A stretch of 64,000 bases of DNA, taken from the NCBI GenBank assembly GCA_903789495.1, contig CAIFEQ010000005.1, positions 34,329-98,328 on the forward strand, read 5' to 3'. The translations under genes and the position numbers were made by a program. The stretch comes from an uncultured Erysipelotrichaceae bacterium (GTDB lineage Bacteria; Bacillota_I; Bacilli_A; Erysipelotrichales; Erysipelotrichaceae). This document shows, piece by piece, positions 2,512-41,004 of the stretch (positions are counted from its first letter, which is position 1; each line of letters opens with the position of its first letter). A model generated the notes under the pieces. The model ran no database searches. It saw nothing but the letters and a program-made list of their open reading frames with translations, and had not been told where the DNA came from.

Positions 2512-3393
2512 ATGAATCTGGATTCTTACCGCTATGACGGCAGCCGCCGGTTCCGCATCGCATCCGTTTCCACGGACGAGACTTCTCAGGCCGAGTCCAA
2601 GGAGCAGGCCGAAGAAGTCCTGAAGGAAAACGACAAGGCCCTGGATGAGCTGCAGCAGAAACTCTATGCTGAAAAGAAAGAAGGCCTGATCATTCTCTTC
2701 CAGGCCATGGATGCGGCAGGCAAGGACGGCACAATCGCCCATGTCCTGAACTGTCTGTCGCCGCATGGCGTCTATGAAGCCGCCTTCAAGGCCCCGACTT
2801 CCATTGAATTAAGCCATGACTATCTCTGGCGCATCAGTGCCCGGGTGCCGGCCAAGGGCGAGATTGCCATCTTCAACCGCTCGCAGTATGAGGATGTGCT
2901 GATCGGCCGGGTGCGGAAGCTCTATGAGGGGCAGGCCCATGCCGACCGGATTGATCTGGACAAGGTCATCGAGCACCGCTATGAGGACATCTGCGGCTTT
3001 GAGGAATACCTCTACCGCAACAGCGTGCGTACCGTGAAGATCTTCCTCCATGTCTCGAAGGAAGAACAGGCACAGCGCTTTCTGGACCGCATCAAGGAGC
3101 CGGAGAAAAACTGGAAGTTCTCGGCCGGGGATGTGGAGGAACGGCAGTACTGGGATGCCTATATGGATGCCTTCCAGGATGCCATCAACGCCACCGCCAC
3201 CGAGCACTGTCCGTGGTATGTCGTCCCGGCCGACCATAAGTGGTACATGCGCTACGTCGTTTCCGAGATCATCCTGCATACCCTGCAGGAGATGAACCCG
3301 CAGTATCCCACCGTCACCAAAGACCGGATGAAGCAGTTCAGCGATCTGAAGGAGCAGCTGGAAGCGGAAATAAAGGACAGAAAGAAAAAGTAA
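2512..3393 (+). CDS. Polyphosphate kinase 2 family protein
   Basis: PPK2 motifs: LIILFQAMDAAGKDGTI, FNRSQYEDVLIGRV, NWKFSAGDVEERQYWDAYMDAF. Confidence 0.9.
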   Translation: MNLDSYRYDGSRRFRIASVSTDETSQAESKEQAEEVLKENDKALDELQQKLYAEKKEGLIILFQAMDAAGKDGTIAHVLNCLSPHGVYEAAFKAPTSIELSHDYLWRISARVPAKGEIAIFNRSQYEDVLIGRVRKLYEGQAHADRIDLDKVIEHRYEDICGFEEYLYRNSVRTVKIFLHVSKEEQAQRFLDRIKEPEKNWKFSAGDVEERQYWDAYMDAFQDAINATATEHCPWYVVPADHKWYMRYVVSEIILHTLQEMNPQYPTVTKDRMKQFSDLKEQLEAEIKDRKKK

Positions 3394-3432
3394 GAGCGTG
3401 CTAGAATACGGGTGAACAGGGAGGAAGCGTAC

Positions 3433-4050
3433 ATGCTGAAGAATGTTCTGGTCTGTATCATTGCCTATCTGCTGGGTTCCATCCCCTGGGCGCTGGTCAT
3501 TGGCAAGGTATTCTACGGCAAGGATATCCGTACGGAAGGCAGCGGAAATCTGGGCGCTTCCAATGCCGGCCGGGTGCTGGGCAAGAAAGCAGCCATCTCG
3601 GTCACCCTGCTGGACGCCTTCAAGGTCGTGCTGGCCATGGCCATTGCCAGGGCCATCGCGCCGCAGATGATCATCTATGCCGGCTTATGCACCTGCATCG
3701 GGCACTGCTTCCCGGTCTTCGCCCAGTTTCATGGCGGCAAGGCGGTTGCCAGCAGCTATGGCCTGCTCTTGGGCATCTGTCTGTTTCTGAACGGACACTG
3801 GTTCTGGGGCTTCCTGTTTCCGATTCTCTGCTTCTTTGCCATCCTGTATCTCTGCCAGATGGTGTCGGTTTCCAGCCTCAGCTCGCTGCTGATCGAAGTG
3901 ATCACCAGCTTCATCCTGAAACAGGATCTGTCCATCTCCGTCTCCCTGCTGCTGTTATGGCTGTTTGTGGTCTACCGGCACCGGGGCAACCTGGAACGGA
4001 TCAGGAACGGTACCGAACGAAAGGTCACCTGGATCGGACGCAAAAAATGA
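3433..4050 (+). CDS. plsY: Glycerol-3-phosphate acyltransferase PlsY
   Basis: YLLGSIPWALVIGK, GSGNLGASNAGRVLG, GHCFPVFAQFHGGKAVA motifs; ATG at 3433 chosen. Confidence 0.93.
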   Translation: MLKNVLVCIIAYLLGSIPWALVIGKVFYGKDIRTEGSGNLGASNAGRVLGKKAAISVTLLDAFKVVLAMAIARAIAPQMIIYAGLCTCIGHCFPVFAQFHGGKAVASSYGLLLGICLFLNGHWFWGFLFPILCFFAILYLCQMVSVSSLSSLLIEVITSFILKQDLSISVSLLLLWLFVVYRHRGNLERIRNGTERKVTWIGRKK

Positions 4051-4075
4051 TTTCCGGCGCAGGAAATCATTTTTT
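4042..4075 (+). terminator. Intrinsic terminator overlapping the plsY stop codon
   Basis: AAAAAATGATTTCC-ggcgca-GGAAATCATTTTTT hairpin; the TGA stop (4048-4050) lies in the stem. Confidence 0.8.
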
Positions 4076-4138
4076 ATAGACTGCAGCAGCATTCTTTATG
4101 CCCGGGGCAGAGAGATTTGTCCTGCCAGCATGTTTTTC

Positions 4139-5686
4139 CTACAGCGGCATATTGCCGTGTTTTTTCGGCAGCCGGTTCACCCGCTTGCCCTGCAGGCTTT
4201 CGAAGGCATTGATCACGTATTTCCGCGTCTGGGACGGCAGGATCACATCATCCACATATCCTCTGGCGGCAGAAACGTACGGATTCATCATCGCTTCGTC
4301 ATATTCCCGGATCTTCTCCTGCCGCCTGGCTGCCGGGTCTTCCGCTGCCCTGATCTCTTTGGAGAAAATAATGTTGGCAGCGCCTTCCGCACCCATGACC
4401 GCGATTTCGGAACCCGGCCAGGCATAAACCGCATCTGCCCCCAAGGAGCGGGCACACATCCCGATATAGGCCCCGCCATACGCCTTGCGCAGAATCACGG
4501 TGACCATGGGTACGGTGGCTTCGCTGTAGGCATACAGCATCTTGGCCCCATGCCGGATGATGCCGCCGTATTCCTGGTCTTTGCCGGGCAGGAAACCCGG
4601 TACATCGACCAGCGTCAGCAGAGGGATGTTGAACGCGTCGCAGGTCCGGATAAACCGGGCGGCCTTGTCACTGGCATTGATGTCCAGGCAGCCTGCCATG
4701 AAGCTGGGCTGGCTGGCAATCACACCGACCGATTTTCCGTTCATGCGGATCAGGGCCGTGATGATGTTCCTGGCATAGTCCTGCTGGACTTCCAGATACT
4801 GCCCGCTGTCTGCCAGAGCCTGTACGACTTCTTTCATGTCATAGGCCCTGGCGGGATTCTCCGGCACCAGCTCATTCAGTTTCTCATCTTCCCGGTTCGG
4901 GTCATCTGAACAGGCACAGACCGGCGGCAGTTCATTATTGTTTGAGGGCAGATAGCTGAGCAGTTCCCGGATCTTCGCCAGACATTCGTCTTCACTGACA
5001 CAGGAGAAATGAGCACAGCCGGACGTCTTGTTATGCACAGCGGCACCGCCCAGTGCCTCAGCCGTGATTTCTTCACCGGTGACCGCCTTGATGACAGCCG
5101 GGCCGGTAATATACATCTGCCCGGTTCCCTGCACCATGAAGACAAAGTCGGTCAGGGCAGGAGAATACACCGCACCGCCGGCACAGGGTCCCATGATTAC
5201 ACTGATCTGAGGAATCACGCCGGAGGCGATGGTATTGTTATGGAAAATCCTGCCGAAGCCATTGAGGGCATCCACACCCTCCTGAATCCGGGCACCGCCG
5301 GAGTCATTGATGGAAATCATCGGTGCTCCCACCTTCAGCGCAGCTTCCTGACACTGACAGATCTTCTCGGCATGCATTTCTCCCAGCGTACCGCCCATGA
5401 CCGTGAAATCCCGGGAAGAGACGAAGACCAGTCTCCCATCGATCGTTCCGTGTCCGGTTACGACGCCGTCGCCAGGCACTTTTTTCCTGTCCATGCCAAA
5501 GCTGGTGCAGCGGTGCTGAATGAAGAGACCGGTTTCCACAAAGGAACCCGGATCCAGCAGCTTTTCGATTCTTTCCCGGGCGGTCAGCTTGCCCCTGGCG
5601 TGCTGCCTGTCTATGGCCTGCTGCCCACCGCCTGCCAGCAGCGTTTCCCGACGCTGCCGCAGATCTTCCTCTGCCGCCCGGCTCAT
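4139..5686 (-). CDS. Acyl-CoA carboxylase carboxyltransferase subunit (PccB/MmdA-like)
   Basis: Carboxyltransferase family: GKLTARERIEKLLDPGSF, INDSGGARIQEGVDAL, GPCAGGAVYSPALTDF, MGAEGAANIIF. Confidence 0.9.
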   Translation of the reverse strand: MSRAAEEDLRQRRETLLAGGGQQAIDRQHARGKLTARERIEKLLDPGSFVETGLFIQHRCTSFGMDRKKVPGDGVVTGHGTIDGRLVFVSSRDFTVMGGTLGEMHAEKICQCQEAALKVGAPMISINDSGGARIQEGVDALNGFGRIFHNNTIASGVIPQISVIMGPCAGGAVYSPALTDFVFMVQGTGQMYITGPAVIKAVTGEEITAEALGGAAVHNKTSGCAHFSCVSEDECLAKIRELLSYLPSNNNELPPVCACSDDPNREDEKLNELVPENPARAYDMKEVVQALADSGQYLEVQQDYARNIITALIRMNGKSVGVIASQPSFMAGCLDINASDKAARFIRTCDAFNIPLLTLVDVPGFLPGKDQEYGGIIRHGAKMLYAYSEATVPMVTVILRKAYGGAYIGMCARSLGADAVYAWPGSEIAVMGAEGAANIIFSKEIRAAEDPAARRQEKIREYDEAMMNPYVSAARGYVDDVILPSQTRKYVINAFESLQGKRVNRLPKKHGNMPL

Positions 5687-6603
5687 AAGGCCTCCAGATC
5701 GGCCAGTGTGCCAAGCGTGATGGTTCTGGCTTGGGGCAGGGTTCTTCTGATCAGTTTGGTCAGCACATTGCCCGGTCCGATCTCAACAAACGTATCGATG
5801 CCCTGCTCCTGCATCTTCTGCAGGGTACGGATCCACTGTACGCTGTGGCACAGCTGATGCATCAGCTCGGCGCGGATGGCATCCGGATCATCCTTCAGCA
5901 GAGAGGCATCCGTATTGGCTATTACCGGAATTCTGGCGGCCTGCACCGGTGTCTTCTGAATTTCCTCATTCAGTCCCTCCTGGGCATCGGCCATCAGCGG
6001 CGAATGAAAGGCCCCGGCCACCTGCAGGGGAACGGTGAACTTTGCGCCTGCCTCGTTCATGGCATCAGCGGCAGCGTCTACTTTTGCGGTTTCCCCGCTG
6101 ATGATGATCTGGCCGGGGCAGTTATAATTGGCCACCGTGACACCATAGCGGCTGGCGATTGCTTCGACTTTTTCCGTTGTCAGCCCGATGACGGCTGCCA
6201 TCGTGCCCGGATGGGCATCCGCCGCCTTCTGCATCAGTTCGCCTCTGCGCCGGGCAAGTTTTACCGCATCTTCAAAGCGCAGTGAACCAGCTGCGGTCAG
6301 TGCCGTGTACTCGCCAAGGCTGTGACCGGCCAGCAGAGCCGGTTCTGAAAGAGCATCCGGCCGCAGTTCCTTCAATGCCGCCAGTACTGCGATGCTTGCC
6401 GTCAGCAAGGCGGGCTGGGCATTATCCGTCCGATTCAGCGTCTCCTGTTCGCCCGCAAAGATCAGTCCGCTCAGGGAAAATCCCAGCGCTGCGTCTGCCC
6501 GTTCAAACACTTCCCTGGCTTTCGGCGAATGGTCATACAGATCTTTCCCCATTCCGATCGCCTGCGAGCCCTGGCCAGGAAAAACAAATGCTGTCCTGCT
6601 CAT
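5683..6603 (-). CDS. fabD: Malonyl-CoA:ACP transacylase
   Basis: FVFPGQGSQAIGMGKDLY, GHSLGEYTAL, GAFHSPLM motifs. Confidence 0.93.
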   Translation of the reverse strand: MSRTAFVFPGQGSQAIGMGKDLYDHSPKAREVFERADAALGFSLSGLIFAGEQETLNRTDNAQPALLTASIAVLAALKELRPDALSEPALLAGHSLGEYTALTAAGSLRFEDAVKLARRRGELMQKAADAHPGTMAAVIGLTTEKVEAIASRYGVTVANYNCPGQIIISGETAKVDAAADAMNEAGAKFTVPLQVAGAFHSPLMADAQEGLNEEIQKTPVQAARIPVIANTDASLLKDDPDAIRAELMHQLCHSVQWIRTLQKMQEQGIDTFVEIGPGNVLTKLIRRTLPQARTITLGTLADLEAL

Positions 6604-6728: not shown

Positions 6729-7112
6729 TCATTCCCGCCGCTCGGCTATGACAAAGGCAAAGGCATAATCCTGCTCATGTGAGATGGAAAGATGCAGATC
6801 GGTGATTCCTGCTTCATCCAGCAGTTTCTGCAGCTCTGCACCGATGACGATATGGGGACTGCCGTCTTTGGCATGTTTTGTTTCCACAATGCGGAAGTCA
6901 AAGATTTTTTCCTTCGTATGGGAGGCGACCGCCTTGAACACGGCTTCCTTGACCGCAAAGACAGAAGCGTAATATTCCGCTTTGCTGTTCGCTGCTGAAG
7001 CCTCCTTCCGTTCTCCCTCACTGAAGGTATTCTCTTCAAAAGCATCTGCCGTTTCCAGAATATGACTCATTTCCGGTATGTACACCAGATCTATGCCGAT
7101 CCCGATGATCAT
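6729..7112 (-). CDS. acpS: Holo-ACP synthase
   Basis: MIIGIGIDLVYIPEM, FAVKEAVFKAV, LSISHEQDYAFAFV. Confidence 0.92.
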   Translation of the reverse strand: MIIGIGIDLVYIPEMSHILETADAFEENTFSEGERKEASAANSKAEYYASVFAVKEAVFKAVASHTKEKIFDFRIVETKHAKDGSPHIVIGAELQKLLDEAGITDLHLSISHEQDYAFAFVIAERRE

Positions 7113-7960
7113 TTTCCGGCCCTCCCTTCCTGAGTGCGGAACAGATCCCGCACCGCCCTGGCAAATTCTGCCGGCTGGTCATATGCGCCATGATGAGAAC
7201 CTGGCAGAATGACCAGAGGCAGAGCAGTTCTTCTGGCAAGTTCCTGCGTCATTTTTCCCGTTATGAGCGCCGAACTGTTTTCTCCGATTCCGATCCAGGC
7301 ATCAGCCAGGCCGGCCAGCTTTTCATAGTGCGGATGACTGTGCAGCAGAGGAATCAGTTCCCGGGACAGAAAGACCCGGTAATTTTTCATCAGATGCGCG
7401 ATTTCCTCTGCCGTTGCCGGGAAAGCATCTTTTTCCCGCGGGCCCAGAATCTCCAGAACGGAAAGAGCTGCCTGATAGAAATGATGCAGAGACAGGCTGC
7501 GCAGAACGGACTGCATCAGCCGGTTAAAGACTGTATCCTCGGCAGCCAGATCCGGCAGAAACGGCTCATACAGCAGGCAGCCCTGCACAAGAGCCGGCTT
7601 CGTTTCCAGATACCGCATGACCGGGTCGCAGCCCGCTGAATGGGCCACGATCCGGCAGGGTCCGATGCGTTCTGTCAGGATGTGTATATCCTCCTGCTGC
7701 ATCTTCAGCGACCTGCCTTCAGATACCCGGTTGCGCCCATATCCCCGGCGGTCGAAGGTGACCACCTGATACCACTGCGAAAGAACCTGAGCGGTCCGGG
7801 AGAAATAATCCGCGTCCACACAGGCCCCGTGCACCAGCAGGACGGTCTGTCCTGCCTCACCATAGGTGCGGCAGCAAAGCGTCCCGCTGTGTACGGGACA
7901 GTACCACTGCCGATAAGATTCATTTGTCTGGTTCATTTTTTCATGATAGATATCATGCAT
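7109..7960 (-). CDS. Alpha/beta hydrolase
   Basis: TVLLVHGACVDADYF, FDRRGYGRN, VAHSAGCDPVM nucleophile elbow; 4-bp overlap with acpS. Confidence 0.8.
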   Translation of the reverse strand: MHDIYHEKMNQTNESYRQWYCPVHSGTLCCRTYGEAGQTVLLVHGACVDADYFSRTAQVLSQWYQVVTFDRRGYGRNRVSEGRSLKMQQEDIHILTERIGPCRIVAHSAGCDPVMRYLETKPALVQGCLLYEPFLPDLAAEDTVFNRLMQSVLRSLSLHHFYQAALSVLEILGPREKDAFPATAEEIAHLMKNYRVFLSRELIPLLHSHPHYEKLAGLADAWIGIGENSSALITGKMTQELARRTALPLVILPGSHHGAYDQPAEFARAVRDLFRTQEGRAGK

Positions 7961-8040
7961 GCGTGAATCCCGGCAGCGGCCGGCCTGAAAGCAGAAATCC
8001 TGCTGATCAGCAGAATGACGGCATGGTCCTGCCGGTATTC

Positions 8041-8622
8041 TTATTTGTTGAACACCACGGGATACAGCGCATCGCTGAAGGTATGCACAATGGCATCAAA
8101 CTCCTGCTGCGATTCCCGGAACCCCCTCTTCACCCAGGCCTGGATCAGGCCGAATTCCAGTCCGCCCAGACCGGCCGCCACATATTCTTCCGGCAGGTTC
8201 AGATATTCACTGACAGAACTGAGATGCCAGCATTCCCGGATGGTCTGGTAAAGACGCTGTTCAAAAGTCGGATCTCCGTTTTCGCTCATCAGCAGGGTCA
8301 GTTCCTTTCCATGGTCAGCCAGATATTTCGAGATAACGTCGGAATGCGGGACATTCCCCTCTTTCAGACCGTTCTTCCGGATCCAGTCCGGCGTTGTCTT
8401 CAGCTCGATCCGGCGGACGTTCTCCAGCAGATCGTCCTCGATTTTTCCGACCAGGTCTTCCTTGCTCAGGTAGTGGTAATAGAAAGTCGTTCTTCCGATT
8501 CCTGCCTTCTGACAGATATCCATCACATTGAAATGATCATAGCCGCGTTTTTCGAGCAGTTCAAAAAAAGCTGTCCGGATGTATTTTTCCGTTTCTCTGA
8601 ATCTTTCATCATTCTTGTTCAT
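8041..8622 (-). CDS. TetR/AcrR-family transcriptional regulator
   Basis: N-terminal HTH: IRTAFFELLEKRGYDHFNVMDICQKAGIGRTTFYYHYLSKEDL; divergent from the ACP/thiolase operon. Confidence 0.85.
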   Translation of the reverse strand: MNKNDERFRETEKYIRTAFFELLEKRGYDHFNVMDICQKAGIGRTTFYYHYLSKEDLVGKIEDDLLENVRRIELKTTPDWIRKNGLKEGNVPHSDVISKYLADHGKELTLLMSENGDPTFEQRLYQTIRECWHLSSVSEYLNLPEEYVAAGLGGLEFGLIQAWVKRGFRESQQEFDAIVHTFSDALYPVVFNK

Positions 8623-8814
8623 ATGGCCAGTACCTCCGCCGGCTGATTTGAACGAATTTCCTGAATCAGTACTAAAGATTGCTGTCCTGAAATTGTAATT
8701 TGTGGTTAAAGAAGAAAACGCTTGCAGCATTATCATATTTTCTTCTCATCCATTTTGCAAAAGGATCATGCGACAGCACCGGTGTCTGAATTCACAGAAA
8801 GGAGTGCCGTTTTT

Positions 8815-9078
8815 ATGGCTGACAATTCTTTGGAGAAACAGTTTCTGACCCAGGCTTCGAAGCTCCTCCGCGTACCGGAGAACAAGCTTTCTGCGTCGAC
8901 CAGCTTCGATACGGATCTGTATACGACTTCCCTGCACTTCTACGGCATGATGTCGATCGTCAGCAAGCTGACAGGGAAGAAGGTTACCTATCCCCAGATC
9001 AAAGCCTGCCATACAATCGGCGACGTTCTGAACCTGATGGGCAGCCTGGAAAGCCCGCAGGACAGCAGTAAGCAGTAA
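8815..9078 (+). CDS. Acyl carrier protein-like protein
   Basis: 87 aa, helical; TDLYTTSLHF in the position of the ACP DSL phosphopantetheine motif; C-terminal IGDVLNLM; first gene of operon. Confidence 0.65.
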   Translation: MADNSLEKQFLTQASKLLRVPENKLSASTSFDTDLYTTSLHFYGMMSIVSKLTGKKVTYPQIKACHTIGDVLNLMGSLESPQDSSKQ

Positions 9079-9098
9079 AGGAGGAAAACTAGGAAACT

Positions 9099-10385
9099 AT
9101 GGGTAAAGCAGCACGCAGCGTTTCCATCATCGGTGTCGGCTGCACCGTCATCGGCGACGTCCGCAAGAGCAAGGAAATCAAGGATTATACGGAACGTGAG
9201 CTGTTTGCGGAAGCCTGCATGAATGCCATGGAAGACGCGGGCATCAGCCCCAAGGAAATCGACGCCTTCTATGTGGGCATCAGCGGTCCGAACTATGATG
9301 CCAAGATCAAGAGCGCCTCGCCTCAGTTCGGGCAGTGGATCGGCATGAAGGGAAAGCCTTCTCTGTTCCATGACGAAGGATGCGGAACCGCCTGCTTCGG
9401 TCTGGAAGCTGCCGTCAACGCCATTGCCTCAGGCCGCTATGACTGCATCATCAGCGGCTCCGTCAATGTCAACACCTGTGTCCCGGTCAAGGGCTGCTAT
9501 CCGCCGTTTGTCCGCGGTCCGCAGTCCAATGACGCCCTCTGGGACAGCGTCTGGTCGGCAGCCGATCCGGCTTATGACAAGCCGGGCTATGGCGGCGGCG
9601 GGGCACTGGATGCCGATGTCGTCGACTACTGTGTCAAGAATCATGTCACGCTGCAGCAGATGGATGATGCCTATGTGAACTTCCTGCTGGGCAAGCGGAA
9701 GGAAGCGGTCATGAACCCGATTGCCGTCACCTGCAACATTTCCTTTGAAGAGGAAGCGAAGATGATGGGCTTCTCGGATCCGCACGATTACCTCAAGAGC
9801 GAAACCTTCAACCCCCGCATGGGAACCACCCTGCGGGCCAGATACATCGGTCAGACCAACGTCGATGCCGGAGCAGCCGTCATCGTCTGTGCAACCGAGC
9901 TGGCCGGGAAGTACCGCAAGGAACCGATTGAGGTGGCCGGCATCACGACCTCTACCTGCCTGGCGACCGGCCTGGCTGAATCGCCGGTGCCTTACAACGT
10001 CCAGATGTTCCAGGAGTGCTACCGGCAGGCCGGGATCACCGATCCCTACCATGAGATTCAGCTGATGAGCATTCATGACTGCCCGATCAATGTCATCGTT
10101 CCGGTTGCCGAGGCAGCCGGCTATCTGAAGACCGGTGAAGGCTGGAAGGACATGCTCAACGGCGAACTCAACTACAACGGCTCCAGGCCGATCAACACCA
10201 GCGGCAGCCGTACGCAGACCGGACATCCTCGTTCCGCCGCCTTCAACATCGAGCTGCGGGAATGCGTCCAGCAGATGCGCGGCGAATCCGGCGACCGGCA
10301 GGTCCGGGAGATTCCGAAGGCTGCAGCGCTGTGGGCCGGCGGCGCCGCCTATAATCTGGGCGCCTGCGTCCTGAAGAAACTTTAA
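9099..10385 (+). CDS. Thiolase-superfamily protein (SCP-x/BbsB-like)
   Basis: GCGTACFGLEAAVNAIASGRYD near the thiolase nucleophile, HDC motif, SGSRTQTGHPRSAA close to the thiolase C-terminal GHP motif. Confidence 0.85.
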   Translation: MGKAARSVSIIGVGCTVIGDVRKSKEIKDYTERELFAEACMNAMEDAGISPKEIDAFYVGISGPNYDAKIKSASPQFGQWIGMKGKPSLFHDEGCGTACFGLEAAVNAIASGRYDCIISGSVNVNTCVPVKGCYPPFVRGPQSNDALWDSVWSAADPAYDKPGYGGGGALDADVVDYCVKNHVTLQQMDDAYVNFLLGKRKEAVMNPIAVTCNISFEEEAKMMGFSDPHDYLKSETFNPRMGTTLRARYIGQTNVDAGAAVIVCATELAGKYRKEPIEVAGITTSTCLATGLAESPVPYNVQMFQECYRQAGITDPYHEIQLMSIHDCPINVIVPVAEAAGYLKTGEGWKDMLNGELNYNGSRPINTSGSRTQTGHPRSAAFNIELRECVQQMRGESGDRQVREIPKAAALWAGGAAYNLGACVLKKL

Positions 10386-10396
10386 GGAGGAAGAAC

Positions 10397-10804
10397 ATGG
10401 CAAGCATCGGACCTGTAATCAAGGAATGGTATGACTATCTGAATCAGGGAAAAATGATGGGCATGAAATGCCAGGACTGCGGCAGCATGGAATTCCCGCC
10501 TGTCCCGGTATGCGACCACTGCGGCAGCATGCACATGGAATGGGCAGAGATTGATCCGCATGGGGAAGTCTTCGCCATCAACGCCAATTCCACAGGCATT
10601 CATCCTTACACCAACGAAGTGTCCCTGTCCGGCTACCTCCGTTTCAAGGACGGAAACATCTTCATCGGCCGGATCGATAACTACGGCGTCGAACAGCAGG
10701 ATGAACTGATCGAACGGATTGCCAAGGAAGGCCCGCTGAAGGCGGAACTGGTTGTCGGACCGCTTGACGAGCACTTCAAGTATCCGTGGATTCACATCCT
10801 GTGA
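10397..10804 (+). CDS. Zn-ribbon/OB-fold protein (DUF35 family)
   Basis: MKCQDCGSMEFPPVPVCDHCGS Zn ribbon followed by an OB-like domain; directly follows the thiolase. Confidence 0.85.
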   Translation: MASIGPVIKEWYDYLNQGKMMGMKCQDCGSMEFPPVPVCDHCGSMHMEWAEIDPHGEVFAINANSTGIHPYTNEVSLSGYLRFKDGNIFIGRIDNYGVEQQDELIERIAKEGPLKAELVVGPLDEHFKYPWIHIL

Positions 10805-10824
10805 TAAAGGAGATTGAACGACAT

Positions 10825-11118
10825 ATGAAAATGGATGGCAGTTACCAGATCCATCTTCTGGTGATGGGGCAGTTTCAGGACGGTACCATGACGATCCATA
10901 CGGAACCGGATGGTTCGCTGTCGGGAACCCTGGCTGCGACGGATCAGACCTCTGCCTTCACTAACGGGGTACAGGATGGTGAGCATTTTGAGATAAACGT
11001 CAGAATCCGCGGAGCGGATATGGATCTGAAAGGCACGATCGACGAGAAAGGCATCCTGAATGCCGAAGCGCGCAAGGAATATCTGACCGTCATCGTGCGC
11101 GGAACCAGGGAAGGATAA
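10825..11118 (+). CDS. Small beta-rich protein of unknown function
   Basis: 97 aa ORF in the operon between DUF35 and crotonase; alternating hydrophobic strands. Confidence 0.6.
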   Translation: MKMDGSYQIHLLVMGQFQDGTMTIHTEPDGSLSGTLAATDQTSAFTNGVQDGEHFEINVRIRGADMDLKGTIDEKGILNAEARKEYLTVIVRGTREG

Positions 11119-11122
11119 AAAC

Positions 11123-11983
11123 ATGCAGAAAGCCAAACAGTGTCAGAGCCCGCGGATGATTCCCTTCCGGTCCTTTGACGAATACAAAAACAAATACAAG
11201 GACGTCATCAGTCTGGAGCGTTCCGAGAGCGGCGTTGTCACTGCGAAGTTCGTTCCCGATCCGGAACTGGGTGTCGCCCTCTGGGATTACCCGCTGCACC
11301 GGGGCATCGGCCAGCTGTGTGCCGATATCGGCCAGGATGCCGATACCTCCGTGCTGATCATCGGCGGCACCGGCAACAAGTTCATGGGCGTCGGCAAGAC
11401 CAGTCTGCCGGATGATGAGGAAACGCTGCGCTGGTCCACCTACGAGCATAGCTACTACGATGGCTGCAACATGGTGGAAGGCCTGGTCAATGATGTGGAG
11501 CAGCCGACCATCGGCGTCATCAACGGCTGGGCGGTGCATTCCGAGATTGCCCTGCTGTGCGACATCACCCTCATGGCCGATACGGCGACCATCATGGATC
11601 CGCACTTCTGCATCGGCGGCGGTCCGCCCGGCGACGGCATTCAGATTGCCTTCCAGGCCTGCATGGGCTACAAGCGTGCCAATTACGCGCTGCTGACCGG
11701 CAATCCGATCACGGCCAAGGAAGCCCTGGACATGGGCATGGTCAATGAAATCATGCCGGCCGACAAGCTGTATGCCCGGGCACAGGAGATTGCCGAACAG
11801 ATTGCGGCCAAGCCGAGAACCGGCGTCAGGCTCATGCAGCAGGTACTCCGCCAGCCGGTCCGTGAACTGATTGCCAAGGAACTGCGTGCAAACTTCGGCA
11901 GTGAGATGTGGTATCAGGTCATTCAGAATGTCCAGCATGACACCGCCTTCGCGGAGATGAACAAGAAGATCAAGCAGGAGTAA
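11123..11983 (+). CDS. Enoyl-CoA hydratase/isomerase (crotonase) family protein
   Basis: VLIIGGTGNKFMGVG, PTIGVINGWAVHSEIALLCDITLMADTA, GNPITAKEALDMGMVNEI. Confidence 0.85.
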   Translation: MQKAKQCQSPRMIPFRSFDEYKNKYKDVISLERSESGVVTAKFVPDPELGVALWDYPLHRGIGQLCADIGQDADTSVLIIGGTGNKFMGVGKTSLPDDEETLRWSTYEHSYYDGCNMVEGLVNDVEQPTIGVINGWAVHSEIALLCDITLMADTATIMDPHFCIGGGPPGDGIQIAFQACMGYKRANYALLTGNPITAKEALDMGMVNEIMPADKLYARAQEIAEQIAAKPRTGVRLMQQVLRQPVRELIAKELRANFGSEMWYQVIQNVQHDTAFAEMNKKIKQE

Positions 11984-12083
11984 TCCGGCTGACTGATCCC
12001 TTCATGCCAAGACTGCTTTCGGAGGACAGCACCTGAAAACCGTGCTGTCCTTCCGGACAGCAGCGCTTCCAGAATCTTCCCCA

Positions 12084-12110
12084 GCCATCCGCTGTCTGTC
12101 AGCGGATGGC
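12084..12110 (+). terminator. Intrinsic terminator
   Basis: GCCATCCGCTG-tctgt-CAGCGGATGGC followed by TTTGTTT. Confidence 0.75.
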
Positions 12111-12232
12111 TTTGTTTCCGAAGCACCTCCTGCTTTTCCGGCAGAGATGGGACAGCCTGCACGCATGTCTGATCTGCCGGACAGCATCTTCTCCGGTCTC
12201 AATCATAATATCCTTACAGATTTTCTCCTGGC

Positions 12233-29132: not shown

Positions 29133-29398
29133 ACCGTTCTTCCTTTACCCCTTTTTTCTGCGGGGTTCTGAGGTCATAATACCTGCTTTTGCAGGATTTC
29201 AGAAGCCTTGGCTGGAAATTATCATGAAAGCAGCAGCCGCTGCTCAGGCAGCAGACTGGCCCTGTTTCCGGACCAAACCGCCGGATGAGTGAAAGATCCG
29301 CTCTTAAAAGCACAGACAGTATGCCGCAGATCCGCGGGTATTTCATGGGTTCTTCCGGCGGGAAGTCCGGAATGCAGGCAGAAAGGAAGAAAACGGAT

Positions 29399-30301
29399 AT
29401 GTTTATTTTCAAGGATCAGCCGGCCCTGGTTACGGGCGGCGCCAGCGGCATCGGACTCGCCATTGCCAGAGCACTGGGCGAAAAAGGATGCAAGGTTGTC
29501 ATCGCCGACTACGATGAAGAGGCACTGAAGACCGTCAGCGACGGTTTTCCCGGCACTCTGATGACCATCAAGCTGGATGTCCGCGACCGGGAAGGCTGGA
29601 AAGCCGCCAAGGAAAAGATTGAAGCAGAATTCGGCCCCCTTGCCATCCTGGTCAACAATGCCGGTGTCATGGACAAACCGGGGCTGGCGATGTCCAAGTC
29701 AGGTCTGGTCGATTATTCGTTTGAACAGTGGGACCGCATGATTGCCATCAACCTGACCGGTGCCGCCAACGGCATCATGACCTTCGGCGGCGGAATGCGC
29801 GACCGGCAGTTCGGCCACATCGTCAATACCTGCTCAACGCAGGGCCTGATCCCGACAGCCGGCGTGCTCGGCTACTCGGTTGCGAAGAACGGCCTGGTTG
29901 CCCTGGGCGAAGCACTGCGGGATGAACTGGCCCCCAGCCACGTCGGTGTCACCAACCTGGTGCCGGGCGTAGTCGCTACGCATCTGGCCTGGAACGAGCT
30001 GAAGCAGGAAGGCGTGGAAATGCCGAAGTTCACCCTGCCCGGCGGCATGGATCCGGCGGATGTTGCCGCCATGGTCATCGACGGCATTGAAAACAACAAG
30101 CCGTTTGTCATCACCCATGGCGAATATGCTCCGTACTACAACGAGCGCGTCCTGCGCATCCAGGCAGCCTTTGCCGAAACGCCGGTCAGCGCCAGCTATG
30201 ATCCGACCAAGCCTCTTGCTGGTACACGGGAATGGGCGGCCGGTGAGCTGAAGAAGGAACAGATGGAAGCTGCCGCAGCGGCAGAAAAGAAGGATGCCTG
30301 A
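29399..30301 (+). CDS. SDR-family NAD(P)-dependent oxidoreductase
   Basis: ALVTGGASGIGLAIARALGEKG, ILVNNAGVMD, GYSVAKNGLVALGEAL. Confidence 0.93.
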   Translation: MFIFKDQPALVTGGASGIGLAIARALGEKGCKVVIADYDEEALKTVSDGFPGTLMTIKLDVRDREGWKAAKEKIEAEFGPLAILVNNAGVMDKPGLAMSKSGLVDYSFEQWDRMIAINLTGAANGIMTFGGGMRDRQFGHIVNTCSTQGLIPTAGVLGYSVAKNGLVALGEALRDELAPSHVGVTNLVPGVVATHLAWNELKQEGVEMPKFTLPGGMDPADVAAMVIDGIENNKPFVITHGEYAPYYNERVLRIQAAFAETPVSASYDPTKPLAGTREWAAGELKKEQMEAAAAAEKKDA

Positions 30302-30852
30302 TGGTTGACGCCAGCCGTGTCATCAATCCGGCCAGCCTGCCGGAATCCCTGTGGCTGGGAAAAATCCCGGTCGTCATGGTGCATCACATTCATGTGCTGG
30401 TCAGTGATCTGCAAGAAGTCCGCCAGACCATCGAAGCCATGCCGGGCGTGGAAAAGGCTGAACTGCACGATGTGCAGGCCTTCAACGGCGAACTGGCCCT
30501 GATGGTCTATGCCAGGCCGGTCAGCGTGGAATTCATCCAGGTGGTCAATCCGGAAATCGGCAATGCCCGCCTCATCAAAGATGAACCACTCGGTTTCAAT
30601 GCCCTCGACTTCCTGGTCAAAGACCGCGATGCGGCCGTCAATGCCGCAAAAGAGGCAGGTTTCATTCTGACGGGTGAGATGGTCATCTACGGCTGCCGGG
30701 AAATCTGGATGCGTCATCCCGGTCTGAATCTGAACGTCGAATTCATGACCATGCCGCCGGCTGGTTATGTGCCGGGAACAGATCCGGAAAAGGACAAGGC
30801 CAAAGTCTGGATCTACGGTCTGGACGGAACCGAAAACCTGTATTTCGAATAG
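30301..30852 (+). CDS. VOC (glyoxalase-like) family protein
   Basis: VHHIHVLVSDLQEVRQTIEAMPGVEKAEL ... NALDFLVKDRDAAVNAAKEAGF; TGATG overlap with the SDR gene. Confidence 0.65.
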   Translation: MVDASRVINPASLPESLWLGKIPVVMVHHIHVLVSDLQEVRQTIEAMPGVEKAELHDVQAFNGELALMVYARPVSVEFIQVVNPEIGNARLIKDEPLGFNALDFLVKDRDAAVNAAKEAGFILTGEMVIYGCREIWMRHPGLNLNVEFMTMPPAGYVPGTDPEKDKAKVWIYGLDGTENLYFE

Positions 30853-38005: not shown

Positions 38006-39664
38006 TCAGTTCTGACTGCCCAGCTGTTCCAGGGCAATCAGGGCTGCCCCGATGGAACCGCACAGCTGACTGTCCGGCGAGGTATGCAGCGGACTGTTCA
38101 GCTTTTCCTGCAGACACTGCACCACTCCCTGGTTGCGGGCTACCCCGCCGGTCATCAGATAGACCGGCTGACAGTCCAGGCGCGCAGCCAGAGAGGCCGT
38201 CTTGGCCGCAACAGCCTTGTTCAGGCCGTGGATGATATCTGCCGTAGGCGTGTTCTGGGCAACCAGTCCGACTACTTCCGACTCGGCAAAGACCGTGCAC
38301 ATGCTGGTAATGGTCAGATCATTCTGCCATTCCAGTCCCTTCTTTGACATCGTCTCCATGTCCAGACCAAGAGCCCGGGCCTGCATCTCCAGGAAACGGC
38401 CGGTACCGGCGGCGCACTTGTCATTCATGATGAAGTTCAGGACACTGCCCTTTTCATCAATGCAGATGACCTTGGAGTCCTGGCCGCCGATATCGATGAC
38501 GGTACGGGCATCCGGATCCAGGTAATGAGCCCCGCGGGCATGACAGGTGATTTCCGTCACGGACTGACCGGTCACCCCGGTGGTCTCCCGGCCATAGCCG
38601 GTCGTCACGATGGCGGCCAGATCGCTTTCCTGCAGCCCGGCATCCTGCAGGGCCAGGGACAGGGCCTTCCGGGCCGTTCCCGCCGCACCGGATCCGGTCG
38701 GGATGATGGCCCGGCCCAGGATCTTCCGGCTGCCGTTCATGATGACGGCATCGGTGCTGGCCGAACCGCTGTCAATGCCGGCAGTATAGACATTCTCATC
38801 AGTTACCATGTCTGCATGTTCCTCCATGGGATACAGTTCTTCACGGAAGGCTTCCAGGCGGGTCTTCATCTGCCCGCTGGAGGACGGAGTCGTATCGGTT
38901 TCAATCTTGAGCACCGGCACGCCGGCATTTTTCTTTTCCATCAGATATTCAAATCCGTAGAAGTCACAGAATTTGATCGTGTGGAAGATCACACCCTTCA
39001 GATGCCCGTTCTGGGTGATCTACCGGGGACTGTGATACCACATCCGCATGCAGGGCAGCGGCTGGTTCAGCAGAGCCTGGGCATACCACACATAGAAGTC
39101 CCCCTGCTCTTCGCCGTTCAGCCAGCGGGTGCCGGTGCAGGTCTGATTGACGATCGGCACCTGACCGAAGGTCTTCTCGATCTGCCGGACCAGCTGCTGA
39201 CCGCCATGGGCACCGGTAAGACAGATGTAATCCTGCTCGGGCAGCACCGGCGGTTTCTCTTTCTGCCTGCGGTAGGCGGCCAGCGTGGCATCTGGATCAA
39301 ACGTCCTGCCGCTGAAGGCTTCATAGGCCTGAACCAGATCCTGCAGGGAGCTGGCCAGCAGCCGGATCTCGGCCTCCCCTTTCTTGTGCGGCAGCGGCAG
39401 GAGGTAGATGAATTCCAGCTGCGGATCCGCCTTGAGCACATCATAGATCCGGCGGGTGCTGTCACAGCAGTCCGTCAGCACCAGGCGGGTGATCTGCTTT
39501 GCCTTGACTTCCTCGATGACAGCCTTGGCAAAACCGCAGAGATTCTGGTGGGCACAGCCGTCGGCACAGTCAAAGTTCAGCGGGCTGGGATCCAGCCGCC
39601 GGACTTCTTCCTGAAAGCCGGCAAACAGTTCCACCGGGGCATAGCGGCAGGTTGTATAGATCAT
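38006..39664 (-). pseudogene. 2-hydroxyacyl-CoA dehydratase D-type subunit fused to dehydratase activase, interrupted by in-frame TAG at 39020-39022
   Basis: Same reading frame on both sides of one TAG: ...PLPCMRMWYHSPR*ITQNGHLKGVIFHTIKFCDFYGFEY...; downstream activase motifs GIDSGSASTDAVIM, DIGGQDSK, NDKCAAGTGRFLE. Confidence 0.75.
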
Positions 39665-40929
39665 TTCTTCAGCATCTCCAGGAAAGCTTCGAGTCTTGTC
39701 AGCATCTGTCCGTCCCCCGCATTCATGCGGTCTACCCCGTCGCCGTTGAGCACCAGGGTCGGGAATCCTCTGGCTTCGAGTTCCTTCTTGATCAGGGCGC
39801 TGGCCCCGCATGTTTCCTTGCAGCCCCAGTGGCAGAACAGCACCACGCCGTCTGCGCCGGTCTGCTGTGCCATTTCCGCAGCCGCCGCAATGCGGTCCTG
39901 CACCGGACCGTTGTAGGGATTGTAGACCAGGCGGGAAGCCATGTAGCGGTACGGGTCGGCAGGATCAAAGACCTGCCAGTTGTCATAGCCCAGTTCGGTC
40001 GCCAGGATCTGCTGATCCGGGCGGAAGTTGAAGAGTTCTCTGACGGAGGCCTGCCAGAACGGATTCGAGTGCATCCAGAGCAGACGGATGCTGTTTTCCG
40101 GGGCGGCCGGGGCATTCTGATAATCCTGAAGCAGCAGCCGGGAGTATTCCAGAGCTTCCGGCGTGCCCAGCATGTTATGGACCATCAGGCCTTCATAAAG
40201 CTCCGAGGTCAGATCGGTCGCAAAGGCTCTGGTGCGCCGGTACGGCAGCGTCGCCCTGACATTCTCAATGGTCGCTGCGGAACGCTGAACCGCTGCCTGC
40301 AGCCGGGCCGGATCCATTTTCCGGCCCAGGTGCTCTTCCAGGGCGGCCTGGATCTCTTTCAGCTGGGCGGCCACATAGTCGACTGAGGTCTCATTCTTGG
40401 TATACGGCACATCCAGGTAATACTGCGGCCGGCCGAAGATCTGGGCCAGCGTGCGGAAGGTCAGGTTGTTGGCATCACAGGCCAGCGAGGTGTTCAGAAT
40501 GCAGCCCGGGGCAGCCATGACACCGTTCAGGGCGGCTCCCATGACGACCTTGTGATAGCTGCAGTAGGTTTCCGGCACTCCGGCCGCTTCGGCGGCTTCG
40601 ATGAAGGGATGCTCGCTGCCGGCGCCGTTGAGATAGGTGGAATACATCTCTGCACAGATCGGGTGCAGGTCAAAAGCCTGCAGCAGTTCACAGGGCATGA
40701 AGATGCTCACCAGAGCGGCCTGATCCATATGGGAGTAGCCGGCAATCATGAAATGCATGCAGGCCGAGGCAAGATACTGCCGGGAAGGCGGTTTCTTTTT
40801 ATCCGGGAAATGATCCTGATACCAGCCAAAAACCCGGTAGGCCCGCAGAATCCACTGCCGGGCTGATGCCGGGTCTTCTGGTATCTTCCGGCCGACGAAC
40901 TGGCCGAACTTTTCTACCACTGTGCTCAT
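39661..40929 (-). CDS. 2-hydroxyacyl-CoA dehydratase family subunit (HgdA/HgdB-like)
   Basis: SRQYLASACMHFMIAGY, LLWMHSNPFWQ, GADGVVLFCHWGCKETCGASALIKKELEARGFPTLVLNGDGVD. Confidence 0.85.
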   Translation of the reverse strand: MSTVVEKFGQFVGRKIPEDPASARQWILRAYRVFGWYQDHFPDKKKPPSRQYLASACMHFMIAGYSHMDQAALVSIFMPCELLQAFDLHPICAEMYSTYLNGAGSEHPFIEAAEAAGVPETYCSYHKVVMGAALNGVMAAPGCILNTSLACDANNLTFRTLAQIFGRPQYYLDVPYTKNETSVDYVAAQLKEIQAALEEHLGRKMDPARLQAAVQRSAATIENVRATLPYRRTRAFATDLTSELYEGLMVHNMLGTPEALEYSRLLLQDYQNAPAAPENSIRLLWMHSNPFWQASVRELFNFRPDQQILATELGYDNWQVFDPADPYRYMASRLVYNPYNGPVQDRIAAAAEMAQQTGADGVVLFCHWGCKETCGASALIKKELEARGFPTLVLNGDGVDRMNAGDGQMLTRLEAFLEMLKK

Positions 40930-41004
40930 GGGTTCTCTCCAGACTGCGGACATCTTACCATGGATGTCAGAAATGCAGACAGGACAGATAAACTGTTTTG
41001 TCGA

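Follow-up and report, generated by a model that had tools for sequence, protein, structure and literature searches.

A putative acyl carrier protein-dependent thiolase/DUF35 acyltransferase module in an uncultured Erysipelotrichaceae bacterium

The DNA analyzed in this work (hereafter, the window) is a stretch of 64,000 nucleotides from an uncultured Erysipelotrichaceae bacterium (assembly GCA_903789495.1, contig CAIFEQ010000005.1, positions 34,329-98,328, forward strand), which carries a compact operon encoding an acyl carrier protein (ACP), a thiolase-like enzyme, its DUF35 partner, a small protein of 97 aa and a crotonase. Sequence comparison and structure prediction, of which the whole analysis consists, indicate that the ACP, thiolase and DUF35 genes constitute the core of a patchily distributed, widespread and apparently undescribed module. 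The window is a divergent variant of this module, distinguished by the HDC catalytic loop of its thiolase, by a retro-Claisen-type crotonase and by a divergent run of TetR, hydrolase, AcpS, FabD and carboxyltransferase genes. As to the function, we propose, with a probability of about 0.5, that the products of the operon form an ACP-dependent thiolase/DUF35 acyltransferase complex, which would perform a retro-Claisen cleavage and pass the acyl group to the ACP.

A recurrent ACP-thiolase-DUF35 module

The thiolase alignment served as the query of a pattern-based scan across some 85,000 species genomes, which retrieved at least 80 loci, at 34-39% identity. Neighborhoods were counted in those 64 loci from other bacteria, among the matches listed, that had enough flanking sequence. 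DUF35 was encoded in all of them and an ACP in 63; 57 possessed a Pta-like phosphotransacylase gene and 54 a butyrate-kinase-like (Buk) gene, either or both being present in 60, and in 12 of the 64 AcpS was encoded in the same operon. The commonest gene order among the matches listed is thiolase-DUF35-ACP-Pta-Buk, and their hosts, mostly gut bacteria, belong to Lachnospiraceae, Oscillospiraceae, Erysipelotrichaceae, Clostridium, Streptococcus, and Collinsella. The phosphotransacylase retains the SRG stretch of phosphotransacetylases, and the kinase scores above the butyrate kinase cut-off. The window belongs here as well: its thiolase falls into the ACP-linked clade and, as in the module, ACP and DUF35 genes stand beside it. 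What the relatives conserve is this core; the exact five-gene order of the window was found in no other locus examined.

A preliminary description of the locus had linked the ACP with the thiolase/DUF35 pair, and the counts given above place this linkage beyond chance. It had also called an ACP leading such a cluster unusual, which turned out not to be the case, the arrangement being a conserved module of many species. Relatives devoid of the five-gene arrangement had been named there as a refutation; taken literally, this applies to the exact set of five genes, but the ACP-thiolase-DUF35 core escapes it. The acyl-ACP substrate suggested there in place of an acyl-CoA is plausible and agrees with the scheme proposed below. 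The relevance it ascribed to a nearby acpS gene is borne out by the 12 operons mentioned and by Sfp-type transferase genes that adjoin the thiolase gene in other loci (in L120, with a PF01648 match, and, by eye, also in L125 and L126). A literature search that covered few subscription journals found no description of an ACP-thiolase-DUF35 module.

Gene fusions point in the same direction. Thiolase and DUF35 are fused in nine distinct open reading frames (ORFs), and DUF35 and ACP in five genomes (G205, G355, G583, G584, and G585); in the fusion of locus L119 Pfam recognizes zf-ChsH2, OB and PP-binding domains. In L053 (positions 3046-5199, minus strand) an ACP domain forms the N-terminus of a CocE/PepX-type hydrolase, whose gene adjoins a thiolase-DUF35 locus; the score of this ACP-CocE match is 187, compared with 26 (standard deviation 4.7) for shuffled sequences. 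Together with the fusion of DUF35 to the 97-aa domain described below, these architectures imply that the proteins very probably work together.

The distribution of the module is patchy: it is present in nine of the 273 genomes of the window's taxonomic family and in one of the 391 genomes of the class to which the host genome G680 belongs (G680 itself), which suggests horizontal transfer.

Some neighboring genes recur as well. Upstream of the thiolase in L091, L121, L080, L092, and L094 there are genes for a vinyl-phenol-reductase-like flavin adenine dinucleotide (FAD)-dependent protein (FAD_binding_2) and for NuoG/GltD-like and NuoF-like iron-sulfur (FeS) proteins, and related loci also contain OFA-type monocarboxylate transporters of the major facilitator superfamily (MFS) and PucR regulators. 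Flavodoxin-fold flavin mononucleotide reductases are likewise encoded near the module and, with the FAD and FeS proteins, possibly provide an electron-transfer step of the pathway. L018 has a single kinase and phosphotransacylase pair, shared by two thiolase-DUF35-ACP sets that differ in type and lie on either side of it.

The carrier, the thiolase and the accompanying proteins

The window ACP matches the Pfam PP-binding family with an E-value of 0.007 and 17 bits, below the cut-off of 20.8, and is matched by the profile of related ACPs at 3e-8. Its AlphaFold model, built with 58 homologues (predicted local distance difference test, pLDDT, 86.8), consists of four helices (residues 2-18, 39-53, 59-63, and 68-78) with Ser39 at the start of helix II, and the best matches of the model among solved structures are ACPs (TM-scores 0.7-0.88). 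The family profile, the four-helix fold, named as a check in the preliminary description, and the ACP matches in PDB secure the identity of the protein, which is thus, by prediction, a genuine acyl carrier protein with Ser39 as the predicted phosphopantetheine site. All 65 family ACPs share this serine without exception. The TTSL motif was read correctly in the preliminary description, its serine being Ser39, though not as to its meaning: in the tabulated motifs of the family the residue preceding the serine is Ala, Thr, Ser, Lys or Asn and never Asp, so that TTSL is a trait of the family and not a defective DSL.

In the thiolase, Cys95, Gly375, and His376 are invariant among the 90 aligned family sequences. 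The catalytic loop reads NDF in 88 of the 90 and HDC in the window enzyme alone. The loop of SCP2 thiolases is HDCF (PMC12329534); of the features that characterize these enzymes the window protein possesses the nucleophilic cysteine, the GHP motif, and HDC, with Pro in place of Phe. It therefore retains the extra loop cysteine of true SCP2 thiolases, which its relatives do not. In the phylogenetic tree, 25 family thiolases including that of the window form one clade (support 100/99) apart from the other thiolases of the order; the window sequence is a long branch, and its place within the clade is for this reason unsure. Its identity to family relatives does not exceed about 40%, and no relative more than 41% identical was found in the 273 genomes of its taxonomic family, among the 391 of the class that includes G680 or in the genome-scan matches listed. 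The DUF35 protein has ChsH2, PhlB, and 3IRB as its matches among PDB structures.

The 97-aa protein had been presented as a protein of unknown function and, indeed, yielded no match in family assignment. It is a detached DUF35-associated domain, as its counterpart is fused to DUF35 in genome G509 (L122, positions 7187-8004): alignment with the C-terminus of that protein scores 95, compared with a mean of 27 (standard deviation 5.3, maximum 70) for shuffled sequences. Among 295 genomes, the domain is present in G509 and the window genome (G000) only. A single-sequence structure prediction of the 97-aa protein was unusable (pLDDT 42). Downstream of its zinc-ribbon part, the G509 gene is interrupted by an in-frame TAG, which reflects either a damaged gene, an assembly error or recoding.

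The crotonase had been assigned to the correct superfamily; within it, the closest solved relatives are the β-diketone hydrolase Alr4455 and 6-oxocamphor hydrolase (E-values 4e-28 and 5e-28), the next group following at about 4e-20. The His and the Asp of the PGDG motif, which we take to be the site residues of 6-oxocamphor hydrolase, are aligned in the window protein. Its sequence thus resembles these hydrolases more than a hydratase, and retro-Claisen activity is predicted. We know of no ACP or thiolase partners of 6-oxocamphor hydrolase or Alr4455. The window crotonase is absent from all 59 other genomes that were reached through the thiolase.

Organization of the locus and related genes elsewhere in the genome

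The features of the locus are listed in Table 1. ORF calling and family assignment (Thiolase_C_1, 5e-23; zf-ChsH2, 1e-7; ECH_1, 3e-23; TetR_N, 1e-9) confirmed the positions and identities of all five plus-strand genes proposed earlier. The gaps between them are, in gene order, 20, 11, 20, and 4 bp, and most of these gaps contain purine-rich Shine-Dalgarno-like stretches. The divergent TetR gene had been noticed too, as had acpS, at about 1.7 kb beyond it, in agreement with the position found here; the minus-strand run, however, reaches further, to FabD and the MmdA-like carboxyltransferase. A TetR gene facing away from the thiolase recurs in several of the related loci. The inverted repeat between TetR and ACP is unremarkable and is the sole candidate for a TetR operator in this intergenic region.

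Table 1. Genes and signals of the ACP-thiolase-DUF35 locus in the window
Feature	Position	Strand	Remarks
MmdA-like (methyl)malonyl-CoA carboxyltransferase/decarboxylase alpha subunit	4139-5686	-	4 bp overlap with FabD; pathway membership uncertain
FabD/MdcH-like malonyl-CoA:ACP transacylase	5683-6603	-	sole FabD of the genome
AcpS-type phosphopantetheinyl transferase, probable ACP activator	6729-7112	-	4 bp overlap with hydrolase gene
Alpha/beta hydrolase, probable pathway member	7109-7960	-	30% identical homologue in L124
TetR regulator	8041-8622	-	divergent from ACP operon
Intergenic control region common to TetR and ACP	8623-8814		9-nt perfect inverted repeat 8710-8718/8738-8746
Dedicated ACP	8815-9078	+	87 aa; predicted phosphopantetheine site Ser39 (TTSL)
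SCP2-type thiolase-like enzyme	9099-10385	+	428 aa; Cys95 nucleophile, H326-D327-C328 loop, G375-H376
DUF35 (ChsH2-type) zinc-ribbon/OB partner	10397-10804	+	135 aa; zinc motif C-x2-C-x10-C-x2-C
97-aa beta-rich small protein	10825-11118	+	free-standing version of the DUF35-fused G509 domain
Crotonase-fold protein	11123-11983	+	286 aa; nearest to retro-Claisen beta-diketone hydrolases
Terminator-like hairpin closing the five-gene operon	12083-12111	+	12-bp stem, strong

The homologue of the alpha/beta hydrolase in L124 adjoins a butyrate-kinase-like gene, which is suggestive only. The MmdA-like protein scores 857 bits against TIGR01117, below the cut-off of 999. The window AcpS is one of two in the genome and is 49-52% identical to those of G509 and contig C17.

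The genome assembly (95% complete, 60 contigs) encodes only two ACPs besides that of the window, both of the pathway type. Contigs C17 (locus L117) and C49 (L118) carry paralogous CocE genes with 92% identity in the portion that is sequenced, and an identical 98-aa ACP gene precedes each. On C17, a Buk gene overlapping the second acpS, an MFS gene, the ACP gene, and the start of the CocE gene are found, the kinase sharing 75% identity with its G509 counterpart; on C49, there are genes of CocE, ACP, MFS, and a Pta-like protein. The CocE proteins share 46-51% identity with those whose genes lie close to the thiolase gene in G355, G584, and G585. The Pta and Buk genes, none of which occur in the window operon, are therefore present in this genome beside its other ACPs, and we suppose that a single pathway may be spread over three genomic places (the window, C17, and C49).

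In other parts of the window, the minus strand at 38006-40953 bears genes for D-components of 2-hydroxyglutaryl-CoA dehydratase and for a BadF/BcrA ATPase; in the ORF of the latter, the first 53 residues or so correspond to the C-terminus of an HGD-D domain, which hints at a frameshift or a fusion with the preceding gene. On the plus strand, at 29285-30852, a short-chain dehydrogenase gene is directly followed by a glyoxalase/VOC-like gene, both recognized by eye from the translation.

Proposed reaction, alternatives and meaning

From the gene identities, the conserved module, the fusions and the invariant active residues, all read from the sequences, we infer a physical complex, a modified carrier, a reaction, its direction, and its substrate. 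In the proposed scheme AcpS would attach the phosphopantetheine arm to Ser39 of the ACP. Cys95 of the thiolase would attack a keto group of a β-diketone or C-acyl compound and, by retro-Claisen cleavage, hold the acyl group as a thioester, which would then be transferred to the arm of the ACP docked by DUF35. In most relatives the phosphotransacylase would turn the acyl-ACP into acyl phosphate, and the butyrate-kinase-like enzyme would convert the latter to the acid and ATP. For the window genome, two exits of the acyl group from the ACP are conceivable, via FabD (to coenzyme A (CoA), then MmdA) or via the Pta and the kinase encoded on the other contigs, and the crotonase may hydrolytically cleave the same or a subsequent β-diketone. 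It is because of this crotonase that a β-diketone substrate is favored. PhlC, the thiolase-fold enzyme of the DUF35 complex PhlABC, transfers acyl groups through its active cysteine without CoA (PMC6392133); given this precedent and the ACP partner, retro-Claisen cleavage with transfer of the acyl group to the ACP arm is the simplest reaction to propose. The conserved order of thiolase, DUF35, ACP, Pta and Buk genes, the fusions, the co-encoded AcpS and Sfp-type transferases and the invariance of Ser39, Cys95 and His376 argue for the scheme, as do the predicted ACP fold, the phosphotransacylase and kinase signatures given above, the lack of a ketosynthase (see below) and the two further pathway-type ACPs of the genome, whose genes lie beside those of CocE, of the kinase and AcpS, and of Pta.

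Several points weigh against this proposal. Substrate and direction are deduced indirectly, both the kinase and the phosphotransacylase being reversible, and neither Pta nor Buk is encoded in the operon of the window. The assignment of FabD and MmdA to the pathway rests on their position and on the absence of fatty acid synthesis genes from an assembly of 95% completeness. It is also possible that the thiolase/DUF35 pair uses CoA. Finally, the window thiolase, a long branch with a different catalytic loop, may catalyze a reaction unlike that of its relatives.

The same genes could operate in the building direction: the kinase and the phosphotransacylase would load a short-chain acid on the ACP at the expense of ATP, and the thiolase/DUF35 pair would condense it with an acceptor by C-acylation of the Claisen or Friedel-Crafts type, in the manner of PhlABC, with FabD and MmdA of the window supplying malonyl-ACP. 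All the steps are reversible, ACPs usually serve synthesis, FabD is encoded in the divergent run, and PhlABC, the 2,4-diacetylphloroglucinol acyltransferase (PMC6392133), is a biosynthetic DUF35/thiolase acylase. Like the window, it combines a DUF35 subunit with a thiolase-fold subunit bearing a nucleophilic cysteine and the histidine of the GH motif, and it demonstrates CoA-independent transfer between C-acyl compounds. In contrast to the module, PhlABC contains PhlA, similar to β-ketoacyl-ACP synthase III, and is devoid of ACP, Pta, and kinase; no PhlA-like gene is present beside the thiolase and DUF35 genes in the window locus. Since, moreover, a ketosynthase was not found, no other polyketide genes were seen nearby, and the FAD_binding_2, NADH/FeS, OFA-type, and PucR neighbors of related loci look catabolic, we regard synthesis as unlikely, if still a serious alternative.

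Improbable, in our opinion, is a CoA-dependent enzyme of the BbsAB, SCP2 or Ltp2/Sal aldolase kind with an ACP adjacent by accident or for regulation. Such enzymes share the fold family and the partner with the window protein, and its HDC loop is that of SCP2 thiolases and of the archaeal acetoacetyl-CoA thiolase, which forms a complex with HMG-CoA synthase on a DUF35 scaffold; the archaeal complex, however, uses CoA and has no ACP, and no HMG-CoA synthase gene was seen in the window locus. Moreover, a chance neighbor would hardly be encoded in 63 of the 64 loci and be fused to DUF35 or CocE elsewhere. BbsAB, likewise a thiolase-DUF35 pair acting on a CoA substrate, was rejected, as the window proteins miss the curated cut-offs by far (45 of 750 bits with NF053628 and 21 of 250 bits with NF053627) and there is no bbs gene context. 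The Ltp2/Sal steroid side-chain aldolases resemble the window pair in the thiolase fold and the DUF35 partner, and differ in the YDHF or YDCY motif, the Tyr/Cys chemistry of retro-aldol cleavage, and the lack of an ACP (PMC12329534); in the place of this motif the window protein has IHDCPI and its relatives NDF, and the nucleophilic cysteine is retained. Membership in neither of these two groups, of which BbsAB and Ltp2-type enzymes were named as precedents in the preliminary description, is thus supported.

Ordinary fatty acid synthesis, with the ACP, AcpS, FabD, and carboxyltransferase as a housekeeping set and the thiolase genes adjacent by chance, is very improbable. The acpS and fabD families are classic genes of type II fatty acid synthesis (FAS II), but no ketosynthase (PF00109) was detected in the window genome, 95% complete, whereas all 14 control genomes were positive. 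FabD is encoded in only two of the 70 genomes of the genus, and the other one, in G025, shares only 37% identity with the window protein and belongs to a complete FAS II cluster. Because of this, as well as of the non-DSL motif of the ACP and its conservation with the thiolase in other taxa, a role in fatty acid synthesis is unlikely for the window ACP, AcpS and FabD. The absence of FabD from the remaining 68 genomes suggests that most members of the genus lack FAS II.

Malonate decarboxylase and citrate lyase are similar to the module in catabolic C-C cleavage with a dedicated ACP, and the MdcH protein of the former is FabD-like; they differ in their catalytic subunits and have neither thiolase nor Pta and kinase. 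The ACP of malonate decarboxylase bears a distinct prosthetic group (PMC5534430); mdcB/citG-type genes for the synthesis of such a group, as well as catalytic subunit genes by the ACP, are absent from the window locus, where AcpS is encoded instead, as AcpS or a Sfp-type transferase is in related loci. The anaerobic phloroglucinol pathway of Clostridium scatologenes shares with the module β-diketone intermediates and energy conservation via acyl phosphate and acetate/butyrate kinase, yet is CoA- and lyase-based, the term "acyl carrier" occurring nowhere in the main text of its description (PMC10470551). Phloroglucinol degradation was rejected, as that pathway employs other enzymes, which had no recurrent match in the neighborhoods examined.

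Acyl carrier proteins are known chiefly from biosynthesis, and of their few catabolic uses (citrate lyase, malonate decarboxylase) none, to our knowledge, feeds ATP synthesis from the carrier. We tentatively suggest, at somewhat less than even odds, a new catabolic strategy: β-diketone-like compounds would be cleaved thiolytically with a carrier protein in the role of CoA, and the acyl-ACP would yield acyl phosphate and then ATP through a phosphotransacylase and a kinase dedicated to it. The strategy would have reached its various hosts among gut anaerobes by horizontal transfer, and dedicated phosphopantetheinyl transferases would be matched to the non-DSL carriers. The gene cluster would then point to an undescribed breakdown (or possibly building) of small keto compounds without CoA. 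Named and isolated bacteria harboring the module, such as Dielma fastidiosa, Eubacterium plexicaudatum, and Streptococcus ovis, make direct testing possible. If the proposal is true, the line of ACP, thiolase, phosphotransacylase and kinase would represent a new type of energy conservation from C-C bond cleavage, and one that is encountered repeatedly in bacteria of the gut and rumen.

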